From: Aurelia coerulea
Lineage: Eukaryota; Cnidaria; Scyphozoa; Semaeostomeae; Ulmaridae
DNA: 64,000 nt
Assembly (NCBI GenBank): GCA_039566865.1
Contig: CM076949.1
Location: 6,911,501-6,975,500 of the forward strand
Direction of reading: 5' to 3'
Translations under genes and position numbers: made by a program
Notes under the pieces: generated by a model
The model's input: only the letters and a program-made list of their open reading frames with translations
Databases searched by the model: none
Told to the model about the DNA's origin: nothing
Shown: positions 15,350-64,000 of the stretch, piece after piece
Layout: every line of letters begins with the position of its first letter
How positions within the stretch are numbered: the stretch's first letter is position 1

Positions 15350-18080
15350 AAACAGGTTTTATTCTTGGAGACTTCAATGTTGACCTCATTAATTATAATT
15401 CTCACACTCCAACTACAAATTATGTTAATTTCTTTTTCTCCAAGCAATTTCTCCCATATATCATTCATCCATCACGGATATCTGGGAATTCTTCTACCCT
15501 TATTGACAATATATTTTCTAATATTGCCGATAATGAAACTGTTAGTGGTAATATTCTGACTTAAATAACTGATCATTTTCCTCAGTTTCTGATTGTTAAA
15601 CAAGGAGGTATATCTTATAAGAATTTATCATATTATCAACATGATTTCTCTAAGCTCAACGAAGAGACTCTTCTGGATGATTTTGCTAACCTTGACCTTA
15701 CCTACTTACATGACCACTCTTTGGATGTAAATGCTAAATTCAACAGACTACTGTCCAGCCTTGATGATTTAGTCAAAACTCATGCACCTTTAAAGAAACT
15801 TACAAAGAGAGATATCAAGTTTAGAAATAAACCATGGATTAATCATAAAATTAAAAAGATGATGCGCATCAGAGATAGATTGTTTCGAAAGCTTAAGAAG
15901 AACAATGATCCATCTGTTTTAGATCTTTATGAGAACTTTAGAAATCGAGTTGCAGTTTCCTTGAAAGAAAGTAAAGCAAGTTATTTCTACAGCTATTTTC
16001 AGAAAAATAGTAACAACATGAAACAGCTCTGGTCAGGAATTAAATCTGTTATGAGTATTAAGAAATCAAGTAGTGTCAATGTGATAAATAAACTTAAAGA
16101 TTTAAATGGTAACATTACCTCAGATCCAACTGTTATTGCTAACATTTTTAATAAGTATTTTGTGAATGTTTCTCATAGTATCACAAAGAATATTCCAAGA
16201 CCTAACAAGTCACCTTTGGATTTCATGGGCAATAGAATGGAGAATTCTGTTTTTGTTACGCCTTCAGTTCCTTTTGAAATTTCTGATATAATTTCTCTTC
16301 TACAATCTGGAAAATCTCTAGGACCAAACGTTATTCCTTAAGATGAAGTTAGCAAAGGTAATCCCACTTTTCAAGAAAGGTTGTCCTTTTACAGCTTCTA
16401 ACTACAGACCTATCTCTCTTCTCTCTGTCTTCAGCAAAATCACTGAAAAAGTCAAGTATGAACGCCTCTATAATTTTTACAAAAGCATGAAATCTTGTAT
16501 GCTTTGCAATTTGGTTTTAGGGCTAACCATTCCATTAACCATGCCCTGGTCAGTTTAACAGAAGCTATCAAGAACTCTTTGGACAACAGAAAACTTGGTT
16601 GTGGAATTTTCATTGATTTACAAAAGGCATTTGACATTGTGAATCACAACATTCTTTTGATGAAACTTGAACTTTATGGAATTAGAGGAACTGTCTTAAG
16701 TTGGTTTAAATCCTACCTCTCAGATAGAAAGCAATTTGTCTCAGTGAATGGATCTAATTCTAACTCCCTCAATGTTACCTGTGGTGTCCCACAAGGCTCT
16801 GTCCTTGGCCCCCTACTTTTCCTAATTTACATCAATGATTTACCTCATTCATCATCCAAACTATCGTTCTATTTATTTGCTGACGATACTAACATTTATT
16901 GTGAAGCTGAAAATCTTAATCTGCTTCAAAGGACTGTTAATAAAGAGCTGAAAAAAGTGAAAATGTGGCTTGATATTAACAAATTGTCATTGAATATAGG
17001 CAAGACTAATTTTATTATCTTTAAGTCTCCCCAGCATTCTTCCTCTGAAATTGTCAGTATCAAAATTGGAAATCTTCCAGTTAAACAGACTAGCTATGTA
17101 AAATTTCTTGGCATTCTGTTGGATGAAAGTCTTTCATGGAAGTATCACTTGACTGAACTTTCTAAGAAGCTAGCTAGAACTTGTGGTATGTTTTTTAAAG
17201 TGAGACATTTCTTACCAATTGATATTTTGATTTGTCTTTACAATTCATTATTTTCACCTTTTCTACAATATGGAATATTAGTTTGGGGTCTTACTTATGA
17301 AACTCACATTAACCCTGTATTTTTATTACAGAAGAGGGTTTTGAGGGCAATTTCATTTGAGCACTTTACTTCTCCTTCTACTCCATTATTCAGTAACTTA
17401 AAAATTTTAAAGCTACATGATCTTTTTCATCTCAAATTGCTGCTTTGTGTATGAATGTGTAAATAAGATCTCTCCTGCTTATTTTCTTTCTTTGATTTAG
17501 TTGAATCTGTTCATCAATATGGTACTCGGCAAGTTACCAAGAATGATATTTTCCCAACTCGGAAAAACACTAATCAATATGGAATTAGGTCAGTACGTTA
17601 CTGTGGTGCAAAGATGTGGAATGCCATTCCAATAGAAATAAAGAAATCCCCATCTGTCATTAGTTTTCGTAAAAACTTGAAATCATACTTATTTGACAAA
17701 AATTACATCAACTGATCGTAGCTGTAAACAGCCATGAAAGAATGAATCAAACTGATCTTTACTCATTATTGCTAAAAGGGGGTGCTCTCTCCTCGATTAG
17801 GTTACCTACTGAGAGAGCTCCTCCTTAAGAAATTCCCCTGCATACAATTCCTGTTCTGTTTAGTTTTTCTTGCATCTTCGTTATATTTGGTAGTTTCTTC
17901 TCTGTAATTTTCCTTCTGTGTGTCTAACGTAGTTTTAATTTAAATTGTATTGTACTTTTGAATTGTATTTTGTTGATATTGTAAGGTTTGTTGTTATTTG
18001 ATTTTGAGTGAAATATATTTTTAGTTATGAATTTGTATGTAGTGGAATTTTAAAATTAAAGGAACTGAACTGAACTGAAA
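15350..18080 (+). mobile_element. decayed non-LTR retrotransposon (LINE), 5'-truncated, CR1/Jockey-like
   Basis: The element begins inside the apurinic endonuclease domain (ILGDFNVDL at about 15358, then TDHFPQF after an in-frame stop near 15562). It continues through the linker (WINHKIKKMMRIRDRLFRKL) and the reverse transcriptase: KVIPLFKKG and NYRPISLLS, GFRANHSINHAL, FIDLQKAFD, GVPQGSVLGPLLFLIYINDL and the catalytic FADD (about 16876). The C-terminal part ends LFDKNYIN at 17715. Defects are a stop and apparent deletion at 16340, frameshifts near 16490 and 17450, and the stop near 15562. It therefore cannot make an intact protein. The 3' end carries GAACTGAACTGAACTGAA at 18062, a short tandem tail as in CR1-type elements rather than poly(A). 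Confidence 0.9.
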
Positions 18081-33344: not shown

Positions 33345-33546
33345 AGCAGTTTATTGAAAATGGTTTGGATGAAGGGTTGATTTTCGAGGATACTTCAAAG
33401 TCTGGCAGTTTTCTTAAATTGTTTGCAAGAAGTGTTGAATATTGAGGATACTTTAAAATCGTGCAGTTCTCTGAAATGGTTTGGGAGAGGTTTTGATCAC
33501 CGATACGTGAGAATCTGATACGAGGACAGATGCTTGAAAATCTGCC
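33345..33546. promoter_or_regulatory. putative 5' flank and UTR of head 2, with internal ~75 bp repeats
   Basis: Directly upstream of the head 2 start. GAGGATACTTCAAAGTCTGGCAG and GAGGATACTTTAAAATCGTGC are diverged copies about 70 bp apart, each followed by TTTTCT or TTCTCT and a TGGTTTG/TTGTTTG phrase. No TATA box is obvious. Assigned by position only. Confidence 0.35.
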
Positions 33547-34817
33547 ATGCAGTCAATTATGAAATGCTCTATTTTCCTGCTGCTGCCTTTATGGCTCAGT
33601 TGCTTCATATTACTGAGTGAGTCTCGAGGGATTGCCTTGCAAGATGATACGAATGATGCCATCAAATTCATCAGTAATGCAAGAGACAACATGAAATTTA
33701 GAGATTTGGAGTTTCCCCGGCAGCGTGTAACTCATGAGGTCGTAACCGAAGACGGTCTTTATTTTCATCTGCCTGTAAACTGTTCCATGTCAAACGATGC
33801 ATTGGCCTTCGATACTGACGACTTCCAAGAGATCCCTTGGTTGAAGCTTTCTAATGATGGACTCATCGCTCATGGATTTGTTGACGTCAAAGAGACTAAA
33901 CCAACTAGTACCATCTGTCTTGGAAATAGCTCTGCTGTTTGTGCTTGTATCGAGATGCATTGCGAAGGATGCGCCACACAGAGCGCAACGAAAATGGTTT
34001 CTATTAGTGGCACAGAGAGGGAGGACAAATTTGCTACCAAGAGTGCCGATTTAAGTACGACAACGCGTGCAGCAGAGAGCATCGAAGAACATGCCACGAA
34101 AAGGTTTGCAGGGAAGTTGATGAGGAACGAAGCATCAAATGCCATAAAAAGGGGATCGGTCACTGTCTCAATAAGTGGCACAGAGAGTGCTGCCAAAATT
34201 GCTTCCAAGAGTTCCAACCTAGGTGTGGCAAGGCAAGGAGCAAATAGTACCAAAGAAGGAATCATAAAACGGTTTGAAGGGAATCTCTTGAGCAGTGAAG
34301 AAAAAAGTGCTTTGACAAAGGCTAAAACGAATGTCACGGAAAGTGCCACAAGGGTTACAAGACATCGACCAAGGCGTGATGTAGCAGATTTGCAGTACCA
34401 AATCAGCTGTGGAGGCTCATCTAAAGTCACGGAAGGGGTCATACTCTTGAACGCAAATTTTCACAACATGTCCTCACAAGAAAAAGCTCAAATAGTATCA
34501 CAGGTATCAACTTACACAGAGGTAGGAAAAAGAAATATCATACTCAAAGAAAACCATGGTAATTTTTATAAAACTGAACTGTTAAACCCAAGTTTCATTG
34601 CTTTTGGTCTTGGTGACTCAACAGGTCAGATAGCAGAAACGACTATTATCAAGTTCCTTTTGGGCTGCGACAGTGTCCCCGGTACTGATAGTCGGATTGC
34701 AAAGATCAGAGCAGATAGCCCTTCTGGTACATTAACAGGGATTTTTGGCCACAAAATCATTGGTTGGTATGTCATTGCTGGGACATTTGTGCCAATAACT
34801 ACAACTGCTCCACCGAG
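33547..34817 (+). CDS. dystroglycan-like N-terminal head 2 (single exon, open at 3' splice)
   Basis: The start at 33547 gives a signal peptide (SIFLLLPLWLSCFILL). An Ig-like region follows (about residues 40-140, GLYFHLPVN to CACIEMHCEGC), then a Ser/Thr/Lys-rich linker made of two ~60-residue repeats that each begin VSISGTE. The furin-like RPRR is at about 274-277. The rest (GVILLNANFHNMSSQEKAQI, then FLLGCDS, then GHKIIGWYVI) matches alpha-dystroglycan domain 2 with its two Cys. The exon ends TTTAPP plus two bases at AG|GTAAAA. Joining to the acceptor at 56093 restores the frame (AG+C, Ser) and continues a Thr-rich linker, so this is very likely the 5' exon of the giant protein; the intron would be 21.3 kb. 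It differs strongly from head 1, and the equivalent of head 1's intron is absent here. Confidence 0.85.
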
Positions 34818-34959
34818 GTAAAATATCTTTCTTAATGAGTAATTTGTGGGTTTTATCAGTGGCCCGGCGCAGCGTTGCCCGTGTCGATGAATGGCCTACG
34901 TCTGTCGCAAACAGGCACGTAGTAGGAAGCATTTTAATCCTGGATGGGCCCAAACTTCA

Positions 34960-37034: not shown

Positions 37035-37800
37035 TGAGTAGTCTGTTCAGTATTCTGCTGCTTTGGCCGTAACAGGAACATGGGGGGAACATTCCGAGAG
37101 AAGCTGTAGACACAGAGCTAAGCTGGGAGACACGAAGTTCCCGAAGAGGGAGTAGGCGGCTTACCTTGTGCTATAAGTTTTTAAATGATCTTAGCCCTGA
37201 GTATACAATAGATCCAATACCCCCTCTTCATCATTCGCAGTACCGTCTACGCGACCAGGATGTCATAGGGTGATTAAAGGCAAGGATAGAAGAATTCAAG
37301 TCTAGCTTCTATCCTAACTGTTTATCCGAATGGAACAAGCTTGAGCCTGAATTTGAGACATGCACCTTCTGTTGCTGTTTTTAAGAATAGGATCTTATCA
37401 ATAATCCGCCCCCCCCCCCTGCAAAATCTGTCTTTGGAATTCACGATCCAAAAGGATTATCCTACCTCACTCTACTTAGAGTTGGTCTCAGCAAGTTGAA
37501 TTTCCACAAATTCAAGCATAATTTTAGGGATACCATCAACCCAATGTGCCCAACAAACGATGGCATTGAGGATACGGAGCACTTTATGTTGCTCTGCCCT
37601 TCTTTTGATGTTCAACGGCAAAATCTTCTCGCCGGAATTGCTGAATTACTACGACCATATATGCAAATCACCAAAATTCCAAATGATACTCTGACGCAGC
37701 TTTTACTATATGGTGATCAAGACTTTTCTAATGACTTGAACAGAAATATACTCGAATTGACGTTACGTTTCATTCACAAAACTAGTCGGTTTGACTAAGA
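37035..37800 (+). pseudogene. LINE reverse-transcriptase C-terminal fragment
   Basis: Reads VQYSAALAVTGT, SRRLTLCYKFLNDLSPEYTI, RLRDQD and SSFYPNCLSEWNKLEPE, then after a stop and shift LLRVGLSKLNFHKFKHNFRD, the knuckle MCPTNDGIEDTEHFMLLCP, and ends KTSRFD at 37797. This is the post-RT region of a non-LTR element whose 5' part is missing. Stops near 37275 and 37382 inactivate it. The minus-strand piece at 26541 is from the same family. Confidence 0.8.
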
Positions 37801-39495: not shown

Positions 39496-42400
39496 CCAAG
39501 TTTAAAAACACACTAACTAATGCAACCTTTATCATATATATATATATACTATACGCCTATGACCCTGTACTCGGCCTGTACTTTAAGTATAACACAAGCC
39601 ATAGACTAGTTACGAAATTCAAAATACAATATTGTAAGCTTAAAGAAATTCACCAACTGACTTCAAATTTGAAAACACACTGACTAATGCAACCTTTTAT
39701 CATATAAATATATATACTATACGCCTATGACCCTGTACTCGGCCTGTACTTTAAGTATAACACAAGCCATATACTAGTTACGAAATTCAAAATACAATAT
39801 TGTAAGCTTCAAGAAATTCACCAACTGACTTCAAATTTGAAAACACACTGACTAATGCAACCTTTTATCATATAAATATATATACTATACGCCTATGACC
39901 CTGTACTCGGCCTGTACTTTAAGTATAACACAAGCCATAGACTAGTTACGAAATTCAAAATACAATATTGTAAGCTTCAAGAAATTCACCAACTGACTTC
40001 AAATTTGAAAACACACTGACTAATGCAACCTTTTATCATATAAATATATATACTATACGCCTATGACCTTGTACTCGGCTTGTACTTTAAGTATAACACA
40101 AGCCATAGACTAGTTACGAAATTCAAAATACAATATTGTAAGCTTCAAGAAATTCACCAACTGACTTCAAATTTGAAAACACACTGACTAATGCAACCTT
40201 TTATCATATAAATATATATACTATACGCCTATGACCCTGTACTCGGCCTGTACTTTAAGTATAACACAAGCCATAGACTAGTTACGAAATTCAAAATACA
40301 ATATTGTAAGCTTCAAGAAATTCACCAACTGACTTCAAATTTGAAAACACACTGACTAATGCAACCTTTTATCATATAAATATATATACTATACGCCTAT
40401 GACCCTGTACTCGGCCTGTGCTTTAAGTATAACACAAGCCATAGACTAGTTACGAAATTCAAAATACAATATTGTAAGCTTCAAGAAATTCACCAACTGA
40501 CTTCAAATTTGAAAACACACTGACTAATGCAACCTTTTATCATATAAATATATATCTATACGCCTATGACCCTGTACTCGGCCTGTGCTTTAAGTATAAC
40601 ACAAGCCATAGACTAGTTACGAAATTCAAAATACAATATTGTAAGCTTCAAGAAATTCACCAACTGACTTCAAATTTGAAAACACACTGACTAATGCAAC
40701 CTTTTATCATATAAATATATATACTATACGCCTATGACCCTGTACTCGGCCTGTACTTTAAGTATAACACAAGCCATAGACTAGTTACGAAATTCAAAAT
40801 ACAATATTGTAAGCTTCAAGAAATTCACCAACTGACTTCAAATTTGAAAACACACTGACTAATGCAACCTTTTATCATATAAATATATATACTATACGCC
40901 TATGACCCTGTACTCGGCCTGTGCTTTAAGTATAACACAAGCCATATACTAGTTATGAAATTCAAAATACAATATTGTAAGCTTCAAGAAATTCACCAAC
41001 TGACTTCAAATTTGAAAACACACTGACTAATGCAACCTTTTATCATATAAATATATATACTATACGCCTATGACCCTGTACTCGGCCTGTGCTTTAAGTA
41101 TAACACAAGCCATATACTAGTTATGAAATTCAAAATACAATATTGTAAGCTTCAAGAAATTCACCAACTGACTTCAAATTTGAAAACACACTGACTAATG
41201 CAACCTTTTATCATATAAATATATATACTATACGCCTATGACCCTGTACTCGGCCTGTACTTTAAGTATAACACAAGCCATATACTAGTTACGAAATTCA
41301 AAATACAATATTGTAAGCTTCAAGAAATTCACCAACTGACTTCAAATTTGAAAACACACTGACTAATGCAACCTTTTATCATATAAATATATATACTATA
41401 CGCCTATGACCTTGTACTCGGCCTGTACTTTAAGTATAACACAAGCCATAGACTAGTTACGAAATTCAAAATACAATATTGTAAGCTTCAAGAAATTCAC
41501 CAACTGACTTCAAATTTGAAAACACACTAACTAATGCAACCTTTATCATATAAATATATATACTATACGCCTATGACCCTGTACTCGGCCTGTACTTTAA
41601 GTATAACACAAGCCATAGACTAGTTACGAAATTCAAAATACAATATTGTAAGCTTCAAGAAATTCACCAACTGACTTCAAATTTGAAAACACACTGACTA
41701 ATGCAACCTTTTATCATATAAATATATATACTATACGCCTATGACCTTGTACTCGGCCTGTACTTTAAGTATAACACAAGCCATATACTAGTTACGAAAT
41801 TCAAAATACAATATTGTAAGCTTCAAGAAATTCACCAACTGACTTCAAATTTGAAAACACACTGACTAATGCAACCTTTTATCATATAAATATATATCTA
41901 TACGCCTATGACCCTGTACTCGGCCTGTGCTTTAAGTATAACACAAGCCATAGACTAGTTACGAAATTCAAAATACAATATTGTAAGCTTCAAGAAATTC
42001 ACCAACTGACTTCAAATTTGAAAACACACTGACTAATGCAACCTTTTATCATATAAATATATATACTATACGCCTATGACCTTGTACTCGGCTTGTACTT
42101 TAAGTATAACACAAGCCATAGACTAGTTACGAAATTCAAAATACAATATTGTAAGCTTCAAGAAATTCACCAACTGACTTCAAATTTGAAAACACACTGA
42201 CTAATGCAACCTTTTATCATATAAATATATATACTATACGCCTATGACCTTGTACTCGGCTTGTACTTTAAGTATAACACAAGCCATAGACTAGTTACGA
42301 AATTCAAAATACAATATTGTAAGCTTCAAGAAATTCACCAACTGACTTCAAATTTGAAAACACACTGACTAATGCAACCTTTTATCATATAAATATATAT

Positions 42401-45400
42401 CTATACGCCTATGACCCTGTACTCGGCCTGTGCTTTAAGTATAACACAAGCCATAGACTAGTTACGAAATTCAAAATACAATATTGTAAGCTTCAAGAAA
42501 TTCACCAACTGACTTCAAATTTGAAAACACACTGACTAATGCAACCTTTTATCATATAAATATATATACTATACGCCTATGACCTCGGCCTGTACTCTTG
42601 GCCTGGCCTGTACTTTAAGTATAACACAAGCCATATACTAGTTACGAAATTCAAAATACAATATTGTAAGCTTCAAGAAATTCACCAACTGACTTCAAAT
42701 TTGAAAACACACTGACTAATGCAACCTTTTATCATATAAATATATATACTATACGCCTATGACCTTGTACTCGGCCTGTACTTTAAGTATAACACAAGCC
42801 ATAGACTAGTTACGAAATTCAAAATACAATATTGTAAGCTTCAAGAAATTCACCAACTGACTTCAAATTTGAAAACACACTGACTAATGCAACCTTTTAT
42901 CATATAAATATATATACTATACGCCTATGACCCTGTACTCGGCCTGTACTTTAAGTATAACACAAGCCATATACTAGTTACGAAATTCAAAATACAATAT
43001 TGTAAGCTTCAAGAAATTCACCAACTGACTTCAAATTTGAAAACACACTGACTAATGCAACCTTTTATCATATAAATATATATACTATACGCCTATGACC
43101 TTGTACTCGGCTTGTACTTTAAGTATAACACAAGCCATATACTAGTTACGAAATTCAAAATACAATATTGTAAGCTTCAAGAAATTCACCAACTGACTTC
43201 AAATTTGAAAACACACTGACTAATGCAACCTTTTATCATATAAATATATATACTATACGCCTATGACCCTGTACTCGGCCTGTACTTTAAGTATAACACA
43301 AGCCATAGACTAGTTACGAAATTCAAAATACAATATTGTAAGCTTCAAGAAATTCACCAACTGACTTCAAATTTGAAAACACACTGACTAATGCAACCTT
43401 TTATCATATAAATATATATACTATACGCCTATGACCCTGTACTCGGCCTGTACTTTAAGTATAACACAAGCCATATACTAGTTACGAAATTCAAAATACA
43501 ATATTGTAAGCTTCAAGAAATTCACCAACTGACTTCAAATTTGAAAACACACTGACTAATGCAACCTTTTATCATATAAATATATATACTATACGCCTAT
43601 GACCTTGTACTCGGCCTGTACTTTAAGTATAACACAAGCCATAGACTAGTTACGAAATTCAAAATACAATATTGTAAGCTTCAAGAAATTCACCAACTGA
43701 CTTCAAATTTGAAAACACACTGACTAATGCAACCTTTTATCATATAAATATATATACTATACGCCTATGACCCTGTACTCGGCCTGTACTTTAAGTATAA
43801 CACAAGCCATATACTAGTTACGAAATTCAAAATACAATATTGTAAGCTTCAAGAAATTCACCAACTGACTTCAAATTTGAAAACACACTGACTAATGCAA
43901 CCTTTTATCATATAAATATATATACTATACGCCTATGACCTTGTACTCGGCCTGTGCTTTAAGTATAACACAAGCCATAGACTAGTTACGAAATTCAAAA
44001 TACAATATTGTAAGCTTCAAGAAATTCACCAACTGACTTCAAATTTGAAAACACACTGACTAATGCAACCTTTTATCATATAAATATATATACTATACGC
44101 CTATGACCCTGTACTCGGCCTGTGCTTTAAGTATAACACAAGCCATATACTAGTTACGAAATTCAAAATACAATATTGTAAGCTTCAAGAAATTCACCAA
44201 CTGACTTCAAATTTGAAAACACACTGACTAATGCAACCTTTTATCATATAAATATATATACTATACGCCTATGACCTTGTACTCGGCTTGTACTTTAAGT
44301 ATAACACAAGCCATAGACTAGTTACGAAATTCAAAATACAATATTGTAAGCTTCAAGAAATTCACCAACTGACTTCAAATTTGAAAACACACTAACTAAT
44401 GCAACCTTTATCATATAAATATATATACTATACGCCTATGACCCTGTACTCGGCCTGTACTTTAAGTATAACACAAGCCATAGACTAGTTACGAAATTCA
44501 AAATACAATATTGTAAGCTTCAAGAAATTCACCAACTGACTTCAAATTTGAAAACACACTGACTAATGCAACCTTTTATCATATAAATATATATACTATA
44601 CGCCTATGACCCTGTACTCGGCCTGTACTTTAAGTATAACACAAGCCATAGACTAGTTACGAAATTCAAAATACAATATTGTAAGCTTCAAGAAATTCAC
44701 CAACTGACTTCAAATTTGAAAACACACTGACTAATGCAACCTTTTATCATATAAATATATATACTATACGCCTATGACCCTGTACTCGGCCTGTACTTTA
44801 AGTATAACACAAGCCATAGACTAGTTACGAAATTCAAAATACAATATTGTAAGCTTCAAGAAATTCACCAACTGACTTCAAATTTGAAAACACACTGACT
44901 AATGCAACCTTTTATCATATAAATATATATACTATACGCCTATGACCCTGTACTCGGCCTGTACTTTAAGTATAACACAAGCCATAGACTAGTTACGAAA
45001 TTCAAAATACAATATTGTAAGCTTCAAGAAATTCACCAACTGACTTCAAATTTGAAAACACACTGACTAATGCAACCTTTTATCATATAAATATATATAC
45101 TATACGCCTATGACCCTGTACTCGGCCTGTACTTTAAGTATAACACAAGCCATAGACTAGTTACGAAATTCAAAATACAATATTGTAAGCTTCAAGAAAT
45201 TCACCAACTGACTTCAAATTTGAAAACACACTGACTAATGCAACCTTTTATCATATAAATATATATACTATACGCCTATGACCTTGTACTCGGCCTGTAC
45301 TTTAAGTATAACACAAGCCATATACTAGTTACGAAATTCAAAATACAATATTGTAAGCTTCAAGAAATTCACCAACTGACTTCAAATTTGAAAACACACT

Positions 45401-46437
45401 GACTAATGCAACCTTTTATCATATAAATATATATACTATACGCCTATGACCTTGTACTCGGCTTGTACTTTAAGTATAACACAAGCCATATACTAGTTAC
45501 GAAATTCAAAATACAATATTGTAAGCTTCAAGAAATTCACCAACTGACTTCAAATTTGAAAACACACTGACTAATGCAACCTTTTATCATATAAATATAT
45601 ATACTATACGCCTATGACCTTGTACTCGGCTTGTACTTTAAGTATAACACAAGCCATAGACTAGTTACGAAATTCAAAATACAATATTGTAAGCTTCAAG
45701 AAATTCACCAACTGACTTCAAATTTGAAAACACACTGACTAATGCAACCTTTTATCATATAAATATATATACTATACGCCTATGACCTTGTACTCGGCCT
45801 GTACTTTAAGTATAACACAAGCCATATACTAGTTACGAAATTCAAAATACAATATTGTAAGCTTCAAGAAATTCACCAACTGACTTCAAATTTGAAAACA
45901 CACTGACTAATGCAACCTTTTATCATATAAATATATATACTATACGCCTATGACCTTGTACTCGGCCTGTACTTTAAGTATAACACAAGCCATAGACTAG
46001 TTACGAAATTCAAAATACAATATTGTAAGCTTCAAGAAATTCACCAACTGACTTCAAATTTAAAAACACACTAACTAATGCAACCTTTTATCATATAGAT
46101 ATATATACTATACGCCTATGACCCTGTACTCGGCCTGTACTTTTAGTATAACACAAGCCATAGACTAGTTACGAAATTCAAAATACAATATTGTAAGCTT
46201 CAAGAAATTCACCAACTGACTTCAAATTTGAAAACACACTGACTAATGCAACCTTTTATCATATAAATATATATACTATACGCCTATGACCTTGTACTCG
46301 GCCTGTACTTTAAGTATAACACAAGCCATAGACTAGTTACGAAATTCAAAATACAATATTGTAAGCTTCAAGAAATTCACCAACTGACTTCAAGTTTGAA
46401 AACACACTGACTGATGCAACCCTTTATCAAATAAATG
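39496..46437. repeat. 168 bp satellite array, about 41 copies
   Basis: A 168 bp unit (ATACTATACGCCTATGACC ... AAATTCAAAATACAATATTG ... CACACTGACTAATGCAACC) is repeated head to tail with very few changes. Variants at a few positions (CCCTG/CCTTG, GTACTTT/GTGCTTT, CATAGAC/CATATAC, TATATACTATA/TATATCTATA) recur in patterns, which implies local duplication of multi-unit blocks. Edge copies are more diverged, as expected for homogenised satellites. It has no coding potential and lies inside the proposed large intron of the dystroglycan-like gene. Confidence 0.97.
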
Positions 46438-46441
46438 TATA

Positions 46442-47142: not shown

Positions 47143-47863
47143 TATTATTATTAAATATCTATTTAAAGTAGGCTAAAAAATGAATAGCTAAATTGCAGCA
47201 AATTAAGGCCCACTATTTACAATATACATAATTTACAATAAAACTAAAATTAATATATATTACAGGACAAACCAGAGTTAAAATCTATCATGTTAGAAAC
47301 CCAACTTGCGGGATATATACTTTGCAAAGCCTACAGTTGCATGTTCCACCATTCCAATATCTAATTCGTTTTTTGAACATAGGAAGGCTGTTTAATTGTT
47401 TTAGTTCTTGCGGTAAATGCTGCCACAGTTTATTTCCAAGGTAAGTAATGGACTCAACTCCAAAGGACGTAGTTCGTACTTTTGGCAGCTGAGCGTCATT
47501 ACCATGCCTTAGGCAGTACCTAATATTTCGTTGCATGAAAATATCATTCATGAATGGTGGATTCAGACCGCATTTTGTTTTATAAATTTCAGTCATGAGC
47601 AACTGTAGGTTTCTTACATGGATTGGCACCGATTTAGATTGCTCCAGGAGAAAACCGAAATCATTCTCGTAATCTTTATATGCAATGCGTAATGCCCTTT
47701 CTTGAATATGATTTATTCTATGATTCAAAGCTCTATCATAGAACATCCAAACAAGAGGACAGTAGCTGAAATGGGACAAAACAAACGCCCTCATTAACTG
47801 CTGCAGTTTTTCAGTGTCCATGTATCGTGAAATTCGAGCAAGAGCGTGGAGTTTTTGGCAAGC
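47073..47863 (-). mobile_element. 5'-truncated LINE, minus strand, with (AAT)n tail
   Basis: The frame 47870-47288 reads QKLHALARISRYMDTEKLQQ, LMRAFVLSHFSYCPLVWMFY, INHIQERALRIAYKDYENDF, IYKTKCGLNPPFMNDIF and TTSFGVESITYLGNKLWQHL, ending NCRLCKVYIPQVGFLT. This is the C-terminal part of a non-LTR polyprotein of a type frequent in cnidarians. The 3' end is a long (TTA)n run at 47078-47152, i.e. an AAT tail on the element's strand. The frame is uninterrupted but lacks endonuclease and RT core, so it is inactive. It is inserted in a satellite unit. Confidence 0.9.
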
Positions 47864-47972
47864 CATAGACGACTTACGAAATTCAAAATACAATATTGTA
47901 ATGTTCAAGAAATTCACTAATTAACTTCAAACTTGAAAACACACTGACCAATGCAATCTTTTATCAAATGGC
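47863..47972. repeat. satellite remnant right of the LINE
   Basis: AAATTCAAAATACAATATTG and GAAAACACACTGACCAATGC continue the 168 bp unit that was interrupted at 47073. It is more diverged than the main array. Confidence 0.85.
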
Positions 47973-49067: not shown

Positions 49068-49450
49068 AACGTATTTTCACTGGATTACGCACCCCTGCTA
49101 CCAAAACCGACTAAGATATGGAGAGCGCACCAGAGATGCTGTTTTCGGTAGCAAGGTTGCTGATAACCAGCGAACCGTCACTGCGGGAGGAGGGATGGGT
49201 CGATTTTTCGCTTTGTCGCCGAGATTGTTGCTTGGAATGCACTAGGCGTGGTCCAGCTCATGCTTAAATACGATGAATCCCCTTGGGGCCTTAAATTCAC
49301 GCGCAGAGGGCTACGTGAAGCACGATTAGCCACTTGGGACTTAGCCCTTTTGTTATTCGGAGTTTGTAATCCAGTGAAAATAGTAACGTATTTTCACTGG
49401 ATTACGCACCCCTGCTACCAAAACCGACTAAGATATGGAGAGCGCACCAT
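49068..49450. repeat. duplicated 60-bp segment bracketing a dispersed 166-bp segment
   Basis: GTATTTTCACTGGATTACGC..GGAGAGCGCACC occurs at about 49069-49131 and again at 49389-49447. Between them lies a 166 bp stretch (49220-49385, GAGATTGTTGCTTGGAATGC to CCAGTGAAAATAGT) that is repeated at 55852-56017. Confidence 0.8.
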
Positions 49451-50600
49451 CAATTGCTGTTTTTACCGGGCACACAAAGTGAAACTGTGATCTTTGTATA
49501 CAATCAATAAGTATCCTGATGATAAATACGTTGATCCTAGCATATACTATCCATAACTCAAGAGTAGGTTTAGGAGTAGGTCACCAATATATACCAGGGC
49601 CCGATTGTTAAAAACTGATATAAGGCTAATACCAGATTGGAACAATACAAATGACTACCGAATCATGCCTTAATCCAAGATTAGCGCCAATCGTGGTTTG
49701 AACAACCCGACCCAGGAGACAATTTTTCATCTGGCATTGTATTTTATTTTTTTATTTTATTTTTTTTGCACAATACAATCTGTTGTTAAATATGTGCTCC
49801 AAGGAAAGAGTTGTTTGCAGCCTCAAAAGGCAGTTTCTCTCTAAAATTCTGTCCAGCCTCTTCCGCTGCAGTAGAAGAATTGAAGAGCAAGGAGCAAACA
49901 TCGTTTTATTAGTAGGTGACGTTCAGCTTTTGACTAAGATTGAAGAGGTAATTTTTGTTAAGTGGGATATTTTTTCCACCCTAGTTGTTCCAAAAGTGTC
50001 ATAGATATTGAAATCGACAATAACATCATCACTACATTGATAGATCTCCTTGGAGAAGGTAATTAACGATTTGTGGAAGGCTATTGTTCTCTGATCGGTG
50101 ATTAGTAACAATATTTATCCGACCAAATAGTCATGTGATTCGAGAGAAAAGCTTTGTTTCTGAGAATGAGAACTCTTCCCCAGCCCGTGTTAGATGCATC
50201 TGTAGAGATTTCTATGTTGAAAACTTTTTTTTTTCGTTTTACAGTTCGGGATTTTTTGTTTTTTTGTTTGTTTTTTGTTTAGCATTTGCCGAAGCTTGCA
50301 TTATTTGTTTGGTTTAGAGCATCACTGCTGGTACTGCAAGAGTAAATAATGTTGCTTTTCCTGTAAAGGACTGAAGTATATGAAGGCAGATGTACTTTGA
50401 ACTCAAGATAGACTCTCGAAACAACGCAAGAGCTGCTTTTTGTCTTGAGAATGCATGTTTCACGGAGATTAGCCCCAACAACACAAATACGTTGCTGTAG
50501 TTACAGGATAGACTCTGCAAGGCCTATAAAGTAGACACACGAAACTAATGTTAACGCTGTGATGATAAAAAGGGGCTGATTCAGTAACTTCTAAATTTGA
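49451..50600. other. non-coding part of large intron
   Basis: T-rich runs at 49740-49770 and 50226-50280; no domain-bearing frame or clear transposon ends. Confidence 0.35.
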
Positions 50601-54985: not shown

Positions 54986-55850
54986 CGGAAGCGATTTCAG
55001 TGCCATGATAAAATAAAAACTACTAAAATGTTAAATAATAAATTGTTTGTTTGTATGTTTGTATGTTTGTTTGTTTTTTACGACCGCAAGCAGAAGGTTA
55101 AGCTTTAGCGGTTTACGAGCAAAGTTGAGAGGCATATCACTCTGGAAAAAATCTCGTACGCCTTAGGCAAAAAGACAACCTATTTGAGTAAAAAACATTA
55201 AAATATCCCTTAAAAACCTGTAGTAAAACAAAAATTAGAATAAAGGTCTCGTACGGTTTTGAAGAATGATACACCCCTCAGAAAGAATAAATATCCTACA
55301 ATACGTTTTGTGAACATTTATTGCACGTGCCTTACTAAAACCTCAATTACCCTTTTCTTGTTTTTCAGTTAGAGTGAAATTTACGAGTAGGCCTAGCCCT
55401 TTTTTGTGACCCTATAGAACTGCTGCAACACCCTGAAGTAAACTTTTTGAAAAACGAGTCTTAACGAAAGACAAAAAGAAGAAAACCAAAAACTGTGTGT
55501 CGAAATAGAATGCGTTGAAAAAACAAAGGGCAGCTGTATAAGAGCTAGTGAAAATAAACCTTCTTAAAAACTCGCTGTGTCTAGGCCTATGCACCAAAAT
55601 GGCAGTGAAATATCACACGTGCAGCTATGAGAACAGCAAGAAACTGCCAAAAAATGAAAACAAAACTCACGTTGTTCGGGGCAGGTGCATTTGCAACTGC
55701 TGGATTTGGTATTGCTGCTGGTTGTTGAGCAGGTTTTCCTTGATTTTATAAAACTGCAGTGACTTCAGCATCAGAAATCTGCACTGGCTGCTGTGCTTGC
55801 TGTGTCGTGGCAGTGACGGTTCGCTCTGTTTCGATTTTGAGATGCAGTTC
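54986..55850. other. non-coding part of large intron
   Basis: A TTTGTATG-type short repeat at 55045-55075; otherwise no supported gene. The open frames here lack recognisable domains. Confidence 0.4.
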
Positions 55851-55851
55851 G

Positions 55852-56017
55852 CAGAGATTGTTGCTTGGAATGCACTAGGCGTGGTCCAGCTCATGCTTAA
55901 ATACGATGAATCCCCTTGGGGCCTTAAATTCACGCGCAGAGGGCTACGTGAAGCACGATTAGCCACTTGGGACTTAGCCCTTTTGTTATTCGGAGTTTGT
56001 AATCCAGTGAAAATAGT
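55852..56017. repeat. second copy of the 166 bp segment
   Basis: By eye identical or nearly identical to 49220-49385, same orientation. It ends only 76 bp before the exon at 56093. It is either a recent transposon fragment or a segmental duplication. Confidence 0.85.
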
Positions 56018-56092
56018 CTTAATCACTAGACAACAGTTGCATGTTTTAATCCTCACAAGGGTGTAGATACTGACTTATTTTTTCCATCGTAG

Positions 56093-56471
56093 CACAACAA
56101 CGGCTGCAGGTCCACAACCACCCTCCGTTAACAAGATACCAACAATCATCATCTCAAATACGACGTTCCGATTTGAGTTTCAAATCCCAGCAAATACATT
56201 TGTTGACAAAGAGGATGGAAACACGCGCAATCTCAATCTGTACTTGTACAATTCAGCTGGCAGTGTGTTATCAAAAGCCTCCTGGATCAGTCTACAAACA
56301 ACTCAACAGATATTAAGGATGTATTCCTCCAAGGCTATAGTCGCAGCACAGCCAACCGGGGGTTACACATACAGACTGAGCGCTATTGATTCGAGTGGAA
56401 GGGAAAGTCATACTGATGTTCAAGTTTCATTTAATCGACCAATCAGTTCGCCGGGATATCTCCGAACAATG
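56093..56471 (+). CDS. exon: Thr linker and first CADG domain of the giant dystroglycan-like protein
   Basis: Acceptor ATCGTAG|C and donor ATG|GTAAGC. The first base completes the codon left open by either head. The exon reads TTTAAGPQPPS, then the CADG signature FEFQIPANTFVDKEDGNTRN, WISLQTTQQILRMYS, YRLSAIDSSGRES. This is the dystroglycan-type cadherin-like fold, with the Asp/Glu calcium-type loop (DKEDGN) and the TD/ID-S-G-S strand. The exon ends in phase 0, matching the phase-0 acceptor at 57784. An internal ATG at 56244 is not a start. Confidence 0.88.
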
Positions 56472-56694
56472 GTAAGCTGAGTTCATCTTTTCGTAAATCT
56501 TTGTTGATTTTTTATTGGAAGAATCAATTTTAAACATTTTCATCGGAAAAATAAAGGTGAACCCTAACCAGCCTTATGTATGTTCTCTTTTCAAAATGTG
56601 CTGTCGAAGAAGAATCCTTCATACTTTAATTGTACCGTGATATCTGTTTCGATGTATCTATTGTCTAGAAAAGTCAGATTCTAAAGAAAATGAT

Positions 56695-56826
56695 TCGATT
56701 TGATTGATGTTGATTTGATTTGATTTGATTTGATCTGATTTGATCTGATCTGATCTGATTTGATTTGATTTGATTTGATTTGATTTGATTTGATTTGATT
56801 TGATTTGATTTGATTTGATTTGATTA
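56695..56826. repeat. (TTTGA)n pentanucleotide microsatellite
   Basis: About 25 tandem TGATT units with a few TGATC variants, lying in the 1.3 kb intron between the first CADG exon and the giant exon. Confidence 0.97.
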
Positions 56827-57783
56827 GTATCTTTATAGACGATGTTCCAATCACCAAGAGGTGTTTTTCATGGGGCTCCTCGAAAAGTAAAAATTGCAAT
56901 GCAGTTATGAAAATAGCAATTAAAAGTATGCCTAAACCTAATAGAATCTTACACAGCTAAAAGCGATTACAGTTTTCAGTGAAATTTATAATTGTTCATT
57001 CCATTCTTTAAAAAGAAATAGTTTTGAAGATCTTTGTTTCTCCCACTTAGTTCTTGAGTTCGGTAATCTGAATTCTTGCAACTTTGAGTTTTTGCTGCCG
57101 AAGGCAGCCTTAACTATTCTTCTTCAATCAACGAGCGAAATTAGCCTGTCTGCCTGTCTGCCGGCTGTCTGCCGTCAGGCTATGTAGATAGACGGGCCAG
57201 CTCACGGCTGCGGTTCTCGGTCTCGCGGCTTGTGAGGATTTATCCAACAAACAACAACAAAAGTTCTCAAACAAAAGATAATGAGTTCTTCCTGCCTACT
57301 TAACTACCTAACTACGTCAATGGACGACAAAGGTTTATTCCTGACAATGCAGGACTCAATATTATGGACCACGGAACCAAGAGCCTTGGACTCGGGAACT
57401 AGAAACTGGCGGAGGAGAGTAACTCAATATTCTAAATCATTTACCTTTGAAGCATTACCCAACTGTAAATTCAAACATGATACACGTTTCCTTAGCAATA
57501 ATCGTTCAATTACTTTCGATAAAATTGACCTCGCTACAGTCGCATTTGGTACAAATAGTAATCGGCAGCAGTCGCTGACTGATGTTATATCTAGTATTGG
57601 TATATATTTCATTACCCCTCTTGCTGTGTGTGTTCACGTTAGTGTACAGACTCTTCCTTACATATGAACCCCTGTGTTCCAACTTGCAAGTCATCTTCTC
57701 AAGCAAAAATATGTTGTTTGTTTCCTGTATCTTCTAACTACAGCAGCCAGGCTAATTATGACATTTTTCTTCGTTTCATATAG
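56827..57783. other. intron before the giant exon
   Basis: A CTGTCTGCC-rich patch at 57150-57180; the plus frame 57281-57667 has no domain. The intron ends TTTCATATAG at 57783. Confidence 0.6.
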
Positions 57784-60700
57784 CTCCTCACTTCAACAAC
57801 AACGGTGGTAGTTACCAGTTTCTTTGATGTCGACATCTTATTCCTGCTTCAATCCAAGATGGCGGCTTACCTCAACATCAAGGCAACGGATATCTTCACA
57901 TCAGTATTTACTGTAGCAAGAAGTGGCAATGCAATGTTGGCTATCACTTACACATTCAGCACACGAGGCCTCGCACAACCAACATGCAATGAGACGGCTG
58001 TCTCCAACCTCCGATCCAAAATGGCTGGATCTGCTGCGCAGGAAGCTTTCACAACAGCCTTGCGACCACAATTCATTGTCACATCGCTGTCAGGAGAAAA
58101 TTTCCAAGGTCCGTGCAGCTATCTTTCTAGCAATCCGGCTACAATCGGCGTGGTTATTAACAGCTTGGGATTACAGATTGGTAAAGTCTTCTCGTTTGCT
58201 ATCCCAGCCACTACGTATTTATCCCCCGCAGGGACGAACATGAGATTAAGTCTTCAGCTCAGATTTGCAAACAACACAAATCTACCATCGAATTACTGGA
58301 TGGGCCTAAGTCAGAAGTACCTCGATCAAAATGTAAAGATGGAAGGTGTTGCAACATGGAGATCAGTATCCCAGCAATCGTCGTTTACATTCAAGCTTGT
58401 GGGTTTAACACCATTGTTGGTTGAAACTTCTCAAAATGTTCTATTCAATGTGCAGAAAAGTGTCACTACGATTCTGTTCTCAGTTGTGATGACCCAGTCG
58501 TCGGCTATAACGATTTCAACCGTTTCATTCATCAACTTATTCGAGTCTTACATGAGTTCGTACTTGGGTGTGTCGTCATCAAGCTTCGTCATCATTGATT
58601 TCGTTGTGTCATCAAACACCATTCTTTCATGGACCTTATCCACTCTGTCATCACCCCCCTGCCAGACCTCTGAAATCAACAACGTTAAAGCTAAGCTGTT
58701 AAAAAGCGACGGGAGTGTGAATGATGATTTGCGTGCAGGACTTATAAGCCAAGTCAACTTTACGCCTTCCAATGTAAAATTCAACACATTCGGAAGCTGT
58801 GATGTGCCTAGAATCAATATACAAATACCAACACTGCAGATACCGAGATACGATGCTTTGAATTACGTTGTACCGTCAAATGCTTTTATAGATGGCAGAG
58901 ATGGTACTAATCTGAAGTTAGAGCTAAATCAAGAGAATGGCAGCACACTTCCAGCGAATTCTTGGATCTGGTTTGATAGAAATACAAGAACAATCTCAGG
59001 AATGCCTTATGATTTATCTAGCACAAAAACCTTCAAATATGTGCTCAGAGCAACAGATTCAGATGGTTCCTCAGTTCAGCAAACCGTTACAATTTCACTT
59101 GGATGGACAGCTCCTGCTTACAATGCTTTCTTCCATATTGAATTCAGCTATCTCCCATCAACGTTACCAATAGCCAAAATCACCACAACATTTCTCCGAC
59201 AACTAAAAGCATACTTCAAGCAGTCTGCTGCACAGAATATCATTATCTTCCAGCCAACGTTGATTAACAGTAAAGTCAGCTTATATTACCAAAACACGTC
59301 CCTGCGAGCTGATATTTGTGATCCTGGTAGTGCGTACATAATGGGGATGATAGGTGACACCGCACAACAATCCAAACCAAAACAAACCTTTATTTCTGCA
59401 ATGCAGCCAAATTTCACGATCACACTGGTCGAAGAAAAACAAAAGAAGCCTGAATGTTTGATTAAGAATAAATTCGGTCCAGCTTTTGCTCCAATTAATA
59501 CAGGTGTCTTTGCTTTTTGGTCGAGTGTAAAGACTGTGCCATACTGTGGTGTAAGTACGTATCTCGTTCCAGCGGGTACATTTCTGGACGAGGAAGATGG
59601 CAACACAAGGAATCTAAAGCTGAATTTAACAAGCACTAATAGCAAGCAACTTCCCATGAATAACTGGGTGACTATTAATGGTACCTCGCAAACTCTATAT
59701 GCAGTTGCTGATGACGGTGTTCACTCTAGCTTGGGAGGAAGTATTGTGAGCTACAGACTGACAGCTACTGACAGTGGCGGTAAGTCAGATGGTATAGAAT
59801 TGAAATTTACTGTCAGTGGTCCACCACCATCCGGATATTACAACATCACCATGACGCTGAATGTATTACAGCTTGGAAATCAACCATATCCTTTACAGAT
59901 CGCACCACTGCTTGCAAGTTTGCAGAATATGTTTCCAAAGGGACTTGGTGTACAGGTACGCTCGTATAATGTCATCGGCAAAATCAATGTTGGTCATCAG
60001 GCAGTATTCGTATGGAGCCCTTGTAATATGCTAAACAACCGCTGCAATGCAACTGCTATTGAACTTATCAGATCAAAAATTTTCACTGCAAGCACGAATA
60101 CCATGAACCCGAATCTGAACTCATTGATTGACAGGAGATTTCAAGTGACAAATGTCATAGAATCACGTAGTGGCCCATGTAAACAAGACCCTCCAGTTGT
60201 ACTTAGAAATGTGCCAACACTCAGCATCAAATTCTGTGGTCCGTTTTCATACAAGATCCCGGCGAATACTTTCAAAGACAACCAAGATGGTAATACTTCA
60301 AAACTAGCATTGAAACTCTTGCAAACAAACGGAAATGCAATCCCGGGGGGATTCTGGCTGCAATTTGATTCGAGCAAACAAGAGATAACCGCAGTATTAA
60401 CCAAAGTGCAATCATCTTCAAGTTACCCAAAACAGCATGTTTTCATGTTAGTGGCTACCGACTCAACCGAGCTGTCTGTGAACACAACAGTCATCGTTCG
60501 AATAGATGGCACTTTCCCAACCTATAGCCATGAATTTTCACTTCAAACTATTTACTCTTTATCTTCAAATTCACATCTACTCTACGAGTTTGCAACGAAA
60601 TTCCGTAGCTTCCTTGGAGACAGTGGACAAAACTTCCTTGCCATAAGTATGACCCCAGCAGCAGGTAATAAAGTCATTATAACTTGGTCAAACTGTTCAC

Positions 60701-63700
60701 TTCGATATAACCCTTGTGATGTATTGAAAATCAAGCAGGTCAGGGACAAACTGCAGACCAATAGTGGTACTATAAGTAATGCATTCACACAAGCCATGGC
60801 ACCAACGTTCAGCCAACTCTTCCTAACAGAGAAGAACCATGGACCTTGTCTTGTGGATAGACCTCCGGTAGTTGCCGCTCCATTTGGCCCTATTTCTGTG
60901 ACAACCTGTGAGACGTTTAAAGCAACGATTCCACAAGGGACTTTTACCGACAATGAACAAGGCAATGCTCGTAACCTGGACATGAAAATAAAAGGTAATA
61001 CGAACAATTGGATAAGTTTCGACCGTTCAAAGCAAGAGATCTCCATAATTGCAACGAATCAAATCGCAGCAAGCTTATCGTCGAAATCAGTCACTGTTGT
61101 TTTGTCTGCGACTGATGCCAGCCAACAAGAAGCTCAACAAAATCTTGTCATAAACATCACCCCCGTCTCAAAACCTGTTACCCAGAAGATTACAATGCGA
61201 TACCGTCTGCGTTCATTGCCAGCCGGTGGGAATTTTGTTTCAGTGTACAATGCTATGAGGAATGATATTGTGAAATATTTCACTTCTACTAATGTTGTAA
61301 ATTCAATTGAATATGGCACACTCCCAACTAGTTTACAGTTGAACACGTTGCTTACAGCAGAATGGAGTAGTTGTTCATTATCACGTGACTCCTGTGATAC
61401 TAGCTCGATTAGAACGATGACATCAATGATCTTAAACAATGGTGCCGTGACTCAAGCTTTCAAACAGGCCTTGCAGCCATATATTGAGATATCAACCGTG
61501 ACATTTTCATATCAAGGTCGCTGCAAAGAACAAATTTCCCCACCTGTTGTGCAAAATCCACTGCCAATCTTCAACCTGAGTTTCTGCGGTTATCAAGTTT
61601 TCAAAATTCCCGCCAATACTTTTTACGATTCACTAGATGGCTATGCACCAAACATGACATTGAGTATATTGAACACAAGTGGTCAAGTTGCTACTGAAAA
61701 ATGGATGTATTTCAATCAAGCCACGCAGACGATTACCATCATACTATCTGACGATGCCTTGCCCAAGTTAATTCCTCCCACAGTACTTCAATATAAAATC
61801 AAAGCTGTCACCAAAAGAGGTCTTTCTGTAATGGATGATTTACGGTTCAGCATTACTGAACCACACAAGAATGTGAGTTTCTCAATCAAAGTAAACTTCG
61901 CGTATCTGGACACGAGTCAACCAAACAGAAACATAATTCTGTCCATTTTTATGGACCGGGCTGCATCATATTTAGGTGGTAGATCAAGCGACATTCACTT
62001 TGCGTCAATTACTGAGACAAAGTTATCAATTGGTACATATTTTGTGGTCGACTTTGCCAATTGCAGTGTCCGGTATGAACCTTGTGACAAAGCAATATTA
62101 CTAAATACACGAAACAAGGTATATGATGAAAGTGGAACACTTCCAGCTTTCAAGGCTGCTTTTGGTTCTAAGTTCCAAATCACTTATGTGCAGTTGAAAA
62201 CATTTGGTCCATGCAATATCAGAAATACGGCACCTTACGTGAAAACGCCACTAACGAAGATTCAAGTTCGGGCGTGCTCTGACTTCAACTACACGATACC
62301 CGCTGGCACCTTTATGGATGAAGAGGACTCTAACCTACAATTATCTGTCACAAAGATTAACGGGCTGCCGGTCAGTGGAAGCTATGAGTGGGTGGGAATC
62401 AACCCTGGGGCGCACGTGCTCGTGGGCATTGTGACCGACTCTGTCATTTCGAGGCAGCCTTCTGGTGGTTATAAACTGACAATCCGTGCAACGGATAGTG
62501 GAAAACTGTCAGCAGAGACTCAATTAATCGTCCAAATTGTTGACAGCATGCCTCAGAAATTGTATCAGTTCACAATGAAGCTGACTGCTAAATCGACAAT
62601 GAGCAGTCAGTTTTTTGAAGAACTAAGGGTCATTCAACTGCTAAACAGATACTTTGATTCGAGATTTACACATGTAATGGGTTCTGTTGTGACATCAAAC
62701 ACAATCACATTGAGAAGCAGCATCTGCAGTTTACCAAATAAATGCGATGAGACATTGGCATCTTCATATTTTAACAGACTTGTCACTGCAGAGAAAACCG
62801 TACCTCAGGCACTAGCTAATTTCTTTGCTGGCTATACTGTTACCTCTGTGTCCGTTTATAGAAATCCATTATGTCTCGTTCCACTAAACCCACCCGTTCC
62901 TTCAATGGCAACTTGGAGAATTACTGGCTCTTACTGCGGAGGATTTCGGGTCACGGTACCAATTGATCTTTTCAATGACAAAGAGGATGGGAACACCAGA
63001 AACCTTGCTTTGGAACTGTATCAGAATTCAAAAGACCCAATAAATTCGAAGTTTTGGGTACAGTTGAACAAGACTTCACAAGAAATTTACGGCTATCCAA
63101 CAAGAAAGCTAACTATAGCGTACACAACTTCCACACGGATTTCACTGGTCGCAAAGGATAGCACTGGGCAGGAAGGATCTGTCAATGTTGTGTTTTCTTT
63201 CACACAGCACCCTGTACCAAAATATGTCTATAAGGTCGTCTTTGAGAGCGTTTACAGTACTACTGTTGATGAAGTTACACTATTTTCTACCAAGATGAGA
63301 TCATTTCTCCATGACAAGTCAACATCCAGTTTTGGTCTCATTGACCATCCCAGCATATCCAGCACTACTCATTTCATAGAATTTGCTAACTGCTCTGTTT
63401 CATACAATCCTTGCGACATATATGGATTAACAACCGTAAAGAATCGCTTATTAACAAGCAGTAACTTACCAACTCCTGAATTCAAGGCAGCAATAAGGCC
63501 GTTTGCCATCAGTTACGGGACAGTACAACTCACAAGTCCATGCTCTACCGCTGCTACCAACCCGCCTATTGTTGTCAATAGAATAAATTATCTGAATATA
63601 TCCTATTGGTCAATCTTTACATTCCAGATTGCTACAAATACATTTTACGACACCGAAGATGGGAACACGAGGCGCCTAACTTTACATCTTACAAATGGCA

Positions 63701-64000
63701 ATAATCAAGCTCTGTCTTCCAATTTCTGGATGCAACTAAACACAAAAACGCAAATGATAACAGCTTATGCGTACTCCTCTCTAGCCTTATCACAACCATC
63801 GTTGGGATACTCCTTCATATTGACTGCAACAGACAGCACCAGCCTATCAGCCTCTAATTCATTCTATGCAAGACTTTATGGGCCTTACAAGATCTTTAAC
63901 GATTGTCAGATCAAAATTAAATTCAATGTAGGTGCCTCCTTGACAACAAGCAGCAACAACGCATTAGCCGACCGCGTGATCAAGTCCTTACAATCCTACT
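57784..64000 (+). CDS. giant exon: tandem CADG + SEA-like/DAG1 units of a mega-dystroglycan (3'-partial)
   Basis: Open from the acceptor at 57784 to the window end in one frame, >2,070 codons. It begins with the SEA-like half of the first unit, then carries nine more CADG domains, starting at about 58165, 58838, 59540, 60226, 60904, 61582, 62272, 62932 and 63607 (step ~680 bp). Clear CADG signatures are IPANTFKDNQDGNTS, VPAGTFLDEEDGNTRNL, VPIDLFNDKEDGNTRNL and IATNTFYDTEDGNTRRL; the first (AIPATTYLSPAGTN) is degenerate. Each is followed by W..F/L..Q.I and a TATDS-type strand, then by ~120 residues with NCS....NPCD (e.g. FANCSVRYEPCD), AF..A..P.F and GPC. That is the order of dystroglycan's membrane-proximal DAG1 region, including its disulphide cysteines. 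Many N-glycosylation sequons are visible. Transmembrane and cytoplasmic parts are not reached. Inferred role: very long extracellular adhesion stalk. Confidence 0.9.

Follow-up and report, generated by a model that had tools for sequence, protein, structure and literature searches.

Tandem dystroglycan-type CADG–SEA units in Aurelia coerulea, likely the outer half of a single-pass dystroglycan-family receptor

Dystroglycan connects cells to the basement membrane, and its failure leads to muscular dystrophies. A window of 64,000 nucleotides from Aurelia coerulea (assembly GCA_039566865.1, contig CM076949.1, positions 6,911,501 to 6,975,500 of the forward strand) ends within a long open frame of repeated domains, which an original prediction made from the letters of the sequence had taken for copies of the dystroglycan ectodomain. 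The question raised by this locus is whether the repeats are of dystroglycan type and what kind of protein they would build. In the reading favoured here, the window encodes ten tandem dystroglycan-type CADG–SEA units (the tenth cut by the window end), which probably form the outer half of a single-pass dystroglycan-family receptor with a predicted uncleaved and stapled arm, an alpha-dystroglycan-like head and a non-dystrophin tail.

Domain content of the array exon

The array frame starts at position 57784 of the forward strand and is still open at the window end after 2072 codons, in agreement with the single frame of more than 6.2 kb that had been predicted. Together with the preceding exon, it was divided as follows.

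56093–56471, forward strand: exon 2, Thr/Pro linker and CADG 1 (profile E = 3.8e-27; acceptor TAG/C in phase 2, donor ATG/GTAAGC in phase 0)
57784–64000, forward strand: exon 3, SEA 1, units 2–9, CADG 10 and the start of SEA 10 (open frame, Pfam, PDB, own profiles)
57784–58119, forward strand: SEA-like domain 1, its first strand likely in exon 2 (left-out E = 1.2e-11)
58120–58806, forward strand: unit 2, CADG and SEA-like domain (single-piece Pfam scan, leave-one-out)
58807–59502, forward strand: unit 3 (single-piece Pfam scan, leave-one-out)
59503–60192, forward strand: unit 4, the first with the extra cysteine pair (leave-one-out, cysteine comparison)
60193–60861, forward strand: unit 5, modelled, aligning with dystroglycan residues 495–715 (predicted structure, fold search)
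60862–61542, forward strand: unit 6 (single-piece Pfam scan, leave-one-out)
61543–62232, forward strand: unit 7 (single-piece Pfam scan, leave-one-out)
62233–62892, forward strand: unit 8, with the weakest SEA-like domain (left-out E = 1.2e-4)
62893–63561, forward strand: unit 9 (single-piece Pfam scan, leave-one-out)
63562–64000, forward strand: unit 10, CADG complete, SEA-like domain cut at the window end (own profiles, leave-one-out)

Nine CADG and nine complete SEA-like domains were detected in the array exon with our own CADG and SEA profiles. The CADG of exon 2, which was outside the training set, brings the CADG count to the ten originally predicted; the accompanying claim of a second domain after each CADG is to be corrected to nine complete domains and a tenth cut at position 64000. 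Since the profiles recover their own training set, a leave-one-out test was run for each array-exon domain. All 18 were recovered, the CADG domains (9/9) at E ≤ 1.7e-8 and the SEA domains (9/9) at E ≤ 1.2e-4, and shuffled domain copies gave E ≥ 12 or no match. Among 1581 six-frame open reading frames (ORFs) of at least 25 residues, no other one fell below E = 0.1, the best reaching 0.14 and 0.23.

Searching Pfam with the whole array frame returned DAG1 at E = 9.2e-32 (111 bits, cut-off 23.3) and He_PIG at E = 2.4e-14. Cadherin remained below threshold (19.9 bits, cut-off 28.8), and the frame does not qualify as a classical cadherin. In a phmmer search of the PDB, the top match was dystroglycan (8yt8_O, E = 7.9e-10), spanning one CADG and its SEA-like domain. 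When the nine SEA-bearing pieces were scanned singly, DAG1 exceeded its curated cut-off in three (units 2, 5 and 7), was listed below it in two (units 6 and 9) and was not listed in the other four (S1 and units 3, 4 and 8). Single units have thus diverged, and it is the whole frame and the fold that carry the case. A self-BLASTP of the array frame gave no off-diagonal match, which is uninformative because the units are only 20–31% identical to each other and lie inside the self-match.

Fold modelling was restricted to one unit, as two-unit alignments were shallow or slid out of register. With the model of unit 5, the fold search put dystroglycan first across the whole unit, CADG and SEA-like domain together; Protocadherin-15 / Cadherin-23 EC-MAD followed at ranks 7–11 and 20. 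The array units carry the IG2 (CADG) plus SEA-like (MAT_NU/DAG1) module of dystroglycan and are, by sequence and predicted fold, of the dystroglycan CADG + SEA-like/DAG1 type, as originally proposed. A generic cadherin or He_PIG repeat protein unrelated to dystroglycan could account for the He_PIG match and the sub-threshold Cadherin match. It was rejected on the DAG1 match and on a fold search led by dystroglycan over the whole unit, and its probability is close to nil. The outcome which the original prediction had named against itself, matches to cadherin and He_PIG only, is contradicted by the same two results.

Order of the units and cysteine pattern

Array relatives came from two protein searches, the first of which scored the 7988 candidates with the most shared words and gave eight proteins. 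Four of these were set aside (P0004, P0005, P0007 and P0008; E = 1.2e-68, 6.5e-40, 7.8e-13 and 1.8e-8), with He_PIG and no DAG1 listed; P0004 and P0007 carry bacterial names. P0001 is 51% identical over 99% of the query and spans units 1–15. P0003 and P0010–P0018 run from unit 9 through the membrane span, and P0019 comprises units 7–19 and a tail of about 685 residues. Residues 1–30 of P0019 form a signal-peptide-like stretch right before unit 7, which suggests either a shorter form without a head or an artefact of the gene model. CADG 15 has no SEA partner in any of the 12 proteins covering it and the next unit (P0002, P0003 and P0010–P0019).

A tree was computed from 79 units of nine of the 18 unit-bearing proteins, by a short search with support from the Shimodaira–Hasegawa-like approximate likelihood ratio test (SH-aLRT) only. 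Window units 2–9 each paired with the P0001 unit of the same number (8/8, SH-aLRT 93–100), window units 7–9 joined units 7–9 of P0019, numbered from the unit-15 landmark, and P0001 units 10–14 clustered with units 10–14 of P0003, P0018 and P0019. Window unit 1 had no placed partner. This same-number pairing across proteins indicates that the array is old and ordered, and a recent expansion of the array was ruled out by the grouping of window units 2–9. As a composite of the relatives, the full arm is predicted to consist of 19 CADG and 18 SEA-like domains, followed by a single membrane span; for this gene, the part past unit 10 is deduced from the relatives.

Shorter arms of this kind have been published. 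In the available text of Adams and Brancaccio (2015; PMC4582122), the Nematostella dystroglycan has six tandem IG2_MAT_NU modules and no maturation site, two tandem modules are given for arthropods, Saccoglossus and Trichoplax, and module enlargement is proposed to stiffen and lengthen the arm. The lengthened dystroglycan stalk of the original prediction remains the best reading; these proteins are a precedent for the shape, of which the original prediction knew no described example. No dystroglycan with more than six modules was found in the literature searched, as covered in part by one library, and array dystroglycans are not mentioned in the accessible portions of papers dealing with red coral, Nomura's jellyfish, the calcification of reef corals and the glycan enzymes. 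The Nematostella vectensis protein, compared by its published description only, shares with the window the tandem CADG and SEA-like modules and the lack of a maturation site; its short mucin region may have a counterpart in the Thr/Pro linker of the window, and its last module, the one most similar to the human module, was listed as a further likeness to the array. It differs in having six modules, against ten in the window and 19 in the composite.

The G–S self-cleavage site was found in none of the nine window units, the last unit of the array lying past the window, and, at the aligned place, in one of 170 units (P0001 unit 9). The dystroglycans of Nematostella and nematodes lack it too (PMC4582122), so that its loss is not decisive for membership in the family. 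The cysteine pair predicted in the second domain, which is that of the dystroglycan SEA domain, was confirmed: the first cysteine is present in 9/9 window units and the second in 8/9 at the aligned column, that of unit 3 being displaced by one residue as judged by eye. Over all 170 units, the first was found in 131 and the second in 156.

Two extra cysteines were identified: one belongs to the CADG lead strand, and the other closely follows the W/F in the SEA strand that comes after the lost maturation site. Window units 4–9 carry both and units 1–3 neither (Fisher p = 0.012). The count was extended to 158 of the 170 SEA rows, from 18 proteins, omitting rows without a usable CADG start; 114 units have both, 40 neither and 4 one only. 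Unit 11 of P0011–P0014 and P0016, unit 11 of P0019 and unit 16 of P0015 have lost both; judged by eye, the two seem to have disappeared jointly on at least three separate occasions. At the position of the extra SEA cysteine, vertebrate dystroglycan has N. Arthropod dystroglycan (P0006, Chironomus Dg) is tandem like the array, but has two units, with the extra pair in neither.

From this pattern, a disulfide staple joining CADG and SEA-like domain within each unit is predicted. Pairing between neighbouring units was also considered and rejected: with each partner displaced by one unit, one or two mismatches arise in the window, and the fit is slightly worse. Several observations speak against the staple. 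Lone extra cysteines occur in octocoral unit 2 (twice), P0014 unit 12 and P0016 unit 16, and in P0003 and P0019 the lead cysteine is retained by the SEA-less CADG 15. Same-unit pairing is favoured over pairing between neighbours by a narrow margin, which often amounts to one or two units in a protein, and the 158 units are kin and not independent.

Given the missing G–S site in nine units and the co-varying cysteines in both domains of most, a covalent stapled chain is predicted. Each unit would form a single folded block resembling the one near the membrane in mammalian dystroglycan, and the units would remain one covalent chain, stapled unit by unit, where vertebrates have the non-covalent alpha/beta joint. 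SEA-like domains and their adjacent domains, dystroglycan included, act as proteolytic switches according to the available part of PMC6586460. The Protocadherin-15 / Cadherin-23 EC-MAD and the Notch NRR treated there resemble the array in that a SEA-like domain has a cadherin-like or other domain as its neighbour, and several of them are such switches, but they have one membrane-adjacent copy and no tandem array.

The likely head exon and its proposed join to the array

Upstream of the array, an S6 exon missed by the original prediction was detected.

33547–34817, forward strand: likely first coding exon (ORF 33538–34821, splice context, Pfam, PDB, three relatives)
34366–34377, forward strand: RPRR, furin-like site ahead of S6 (sequence; kept in 4/4 rows)
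34408–34776, forward strand: S6-like alpha-dystroglycan N-terminal domain 2 (a_DG1_N2), residues 291–413 of P0009 (Pfam, PDB)
34818–56092, forward strand: likely intron 1 of 21 kb, with repeats and transposon remnants by eye (repeat and ORF inspection, simple exon scan)

Exon 1 codes in order for a signal-peptide-like start, a beta-rich stretch at the position of IG1, a linker of about 130 residues, RPRR, S6 and the start of a Thr/Pro linker. S6 matched Pfam a_DG1_N2 at E = 9.5e-6 (26.0 bits, cut-off 26.1) and its region matched alpha-dystroglycan in the PDB at E = 4.2e-4; it was taken as a dystroglycan S6. RPRR is the sole R-x-K/R-R match within the joined protein. In vertebrate dystroglycan, the furin-like site is placed after S6. 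Ahead of S6 and after the beta-rich stretch, the linker (33995–34330) looks by eye like two copies of a repeat of about 50 residues (VSISGTE...).

Exon 1 likely belongs to the array gene. Its likely donor, AG/GTAAAA in phase 2, matches the phase-2 acceptor at 56093, and the 56471/57784 junction is in phase 0. The joined exons form a stop-free frame of 2622 codons, in which the Thr/Pro linker runs across the join (ITTTAPPS-TTTAAGPQPP). Two neighbouring genes, namely a secreted alpha-dystroglycan head that stops with the TAA of 34819–34821 and a separate repeat protein from near 56 kb, would be the alternative. Read unspliced, the donor overlaps this in-frame TAA, and the ORFs of all three head relatives (99, 73 and 72% identity) end at an identical residue, which fits a true stop equally. 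The intervening 21 kb include a 7-kb satellite array, and the signal-peptide-like start of P0019 directly ahead of unit 7 means that head-less arrays may exist. Against two genes, the overlapping donor has the phase of the exon 2 acceptor, no start codon precedes CADG in exon 2 (the first Met of the frame is residue 85, within CADG), the linker is continuous over the join, and no poly(A) signal (AATAAA/ATTAAA) was found within 1.5 kb after exon 1, where about 2.4 would be expected at the window average. An octocoral record (P0021) also combines head and array. The two-gene alternative is considered improbable.

The assignment of the head to the array is weakened by the following points. The join spans 21 kb and was derived from sequence; the S6 score is 0.1 bit short of the Pfam cut-off and falls to 24.6, 18.8 and 20.9 bits in the three head relatives. 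No sequence hit to IG1 was obtained in this gene, and a profile comparison with the octocoral N-terminus was negative; the N-terminal model, from four rows, is unreliable, with a predicted local distance difference test (pLDDT) value of 36, and shows beta strands at the IG1 position.

The octocoral protein (P0021, LOC114525338 of Dendronephthya gigantea) resembles the predicted receptor in having CADG–SEA units and one membrane span, in one polypeptide with a head. Its IG1 matches alpha-dystroglycan (E = 1.1e-8), followed by ten CADG (one partial) and ten SEA domains; neither Pfam nor the PDB search detected S6 in it. It differs from the window in units that do not correspond one-to-one and a longer Ser/Thr-rich stretch ahead of the units (by eye), and from the predicted receptor in a PPxY tail. 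The only candidate for a mucin-like region in the window is the Thr/Pro linker of about 20 residues at the exon join.

A simple scan of intron 1 for phase-2 exons gave ten candidates, none S/T/P-rich and none of at least 100 codons. The intron holds a satellite (39497–46441, a 168-bp tandem repeat, about 41 copies, 98% match), two ORFs (49167–49490 and 55752–56066) sharing a peptide of about 55 residues (EIVAWNALGVVQLMLKYDESPWGLKFTRRG...) as a dispersed repeat, and remnants of non-LTR elements by eye (ORFs 37391–37798, forward, and 47288–47920, reverse strand). Elsewhere in the window, a reverse transcriptase ORF (16474–17454; RVT_1, E = 1.9e-28) and a Rhodopsin-family receptor fragment (6807–7517, minus strand; 7tm_1, E = 3.1e-15) were observed.

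Membrane span and tail of the relatives, and probable place in the dystroglycan family

The last unit is followed by one membrane span in P0003, P0010–P0019 and P0020–P0022; P0001 and P0002 end ahead of it, as does the window at 64000. PPxY, which the original prediction had expected, was found in none of the 11 cytoplasmic tails of this type (P0003 and P0010–P0019), the long tail of P0019 included. It is present in the tails of P0020 and P0021, and P0022 ends with LPPAYVPP. The DAG1 match of P0022 covers residues 2–267 of 290, extending into the tail, and the best DAG1 stretches of P0001, P0003, P0010 and P0017–P0019 end by profile position 110, short of the tail part. This suggests that dystrophin coupling was lost in the 19-unit type, a loss that may extend to this gene. 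Two facts count against such a loss: in ten of the 11, the tail seems to come from an ORF call and may stop at an intron, lacking 3' exons, and P0019, which alone resembles a gene model, begins at unit 7.

These tails bear on another explanation, that of an ordinary dystroglycan ortholog with more modules and the usual link from matrix to dystrophin, as in Nematostella. The published amplification of modules in Nematostella (6) and arthropods (2) (PMC4582122, in its available text) is in its favour, as is the weak grouping of the last octocoral unit and unit 19 with the units of P0022, a dystroglycan-tailed protein (SH-aLRT 82, tree drawn open). The 11 tails without PPxY and the early end of the DAG1 stretches oppose it, and this explanation appears rather unlikely, though not negligible.

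In the favoured receptor, the long repeated arm would hold the alpha-dystroglycan-like head, S6 and the short Thr/Pro linker, far from the membrane and would determine how far and how stiffly it extends. Putative glycans on the linker would allow the head to bind matrix, and the tail, given the lack of a dystrophin motif in the relatives, may anchor to another partner. Vertebrate dystroglycan (DAG1; PDB 8yt8, 8uf4, 9c3c and 1u2c) shares the unit fold, S6 and the SEA-like cysteine pair with the array, but differs from the predicted receptor in its one unit, long mucin stalk, G–S self-cleavage and dystrophin-binding PPxY tail. A wider proposal is put forward tentatively: cnidarians would possess a second dystroglycan class, an uncleaved and disulfide-stapled adhesion rod with 19 units and about 4,700–5,300 residues (own estimate from overlapping relatives), which would have kept the alpha-dystroglycan head and given up dystrophin, and in which every unit would be a copy of a force-sensitive proteolytic switch.

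In Brancaccio and Adams (2017; PMC5216574), as far as its text was available, dystroglycan modules are described as not exon-based and an intron within IG1 as universal across 35 species. Here, one open frame that lacks this intron extends from the start codon through S6, and a single ORF is common to relatives P0023–P0025. The array exceeds the six modules found in print. Its ten to nineteen copies of the membrane-near block would form a natural series of variants of a fold whose stability and cleavage matter in disease. The array would show how a covalent link can take over from the alpha/beta joint, and would provide a test of dystroglycan function without dystrophin.
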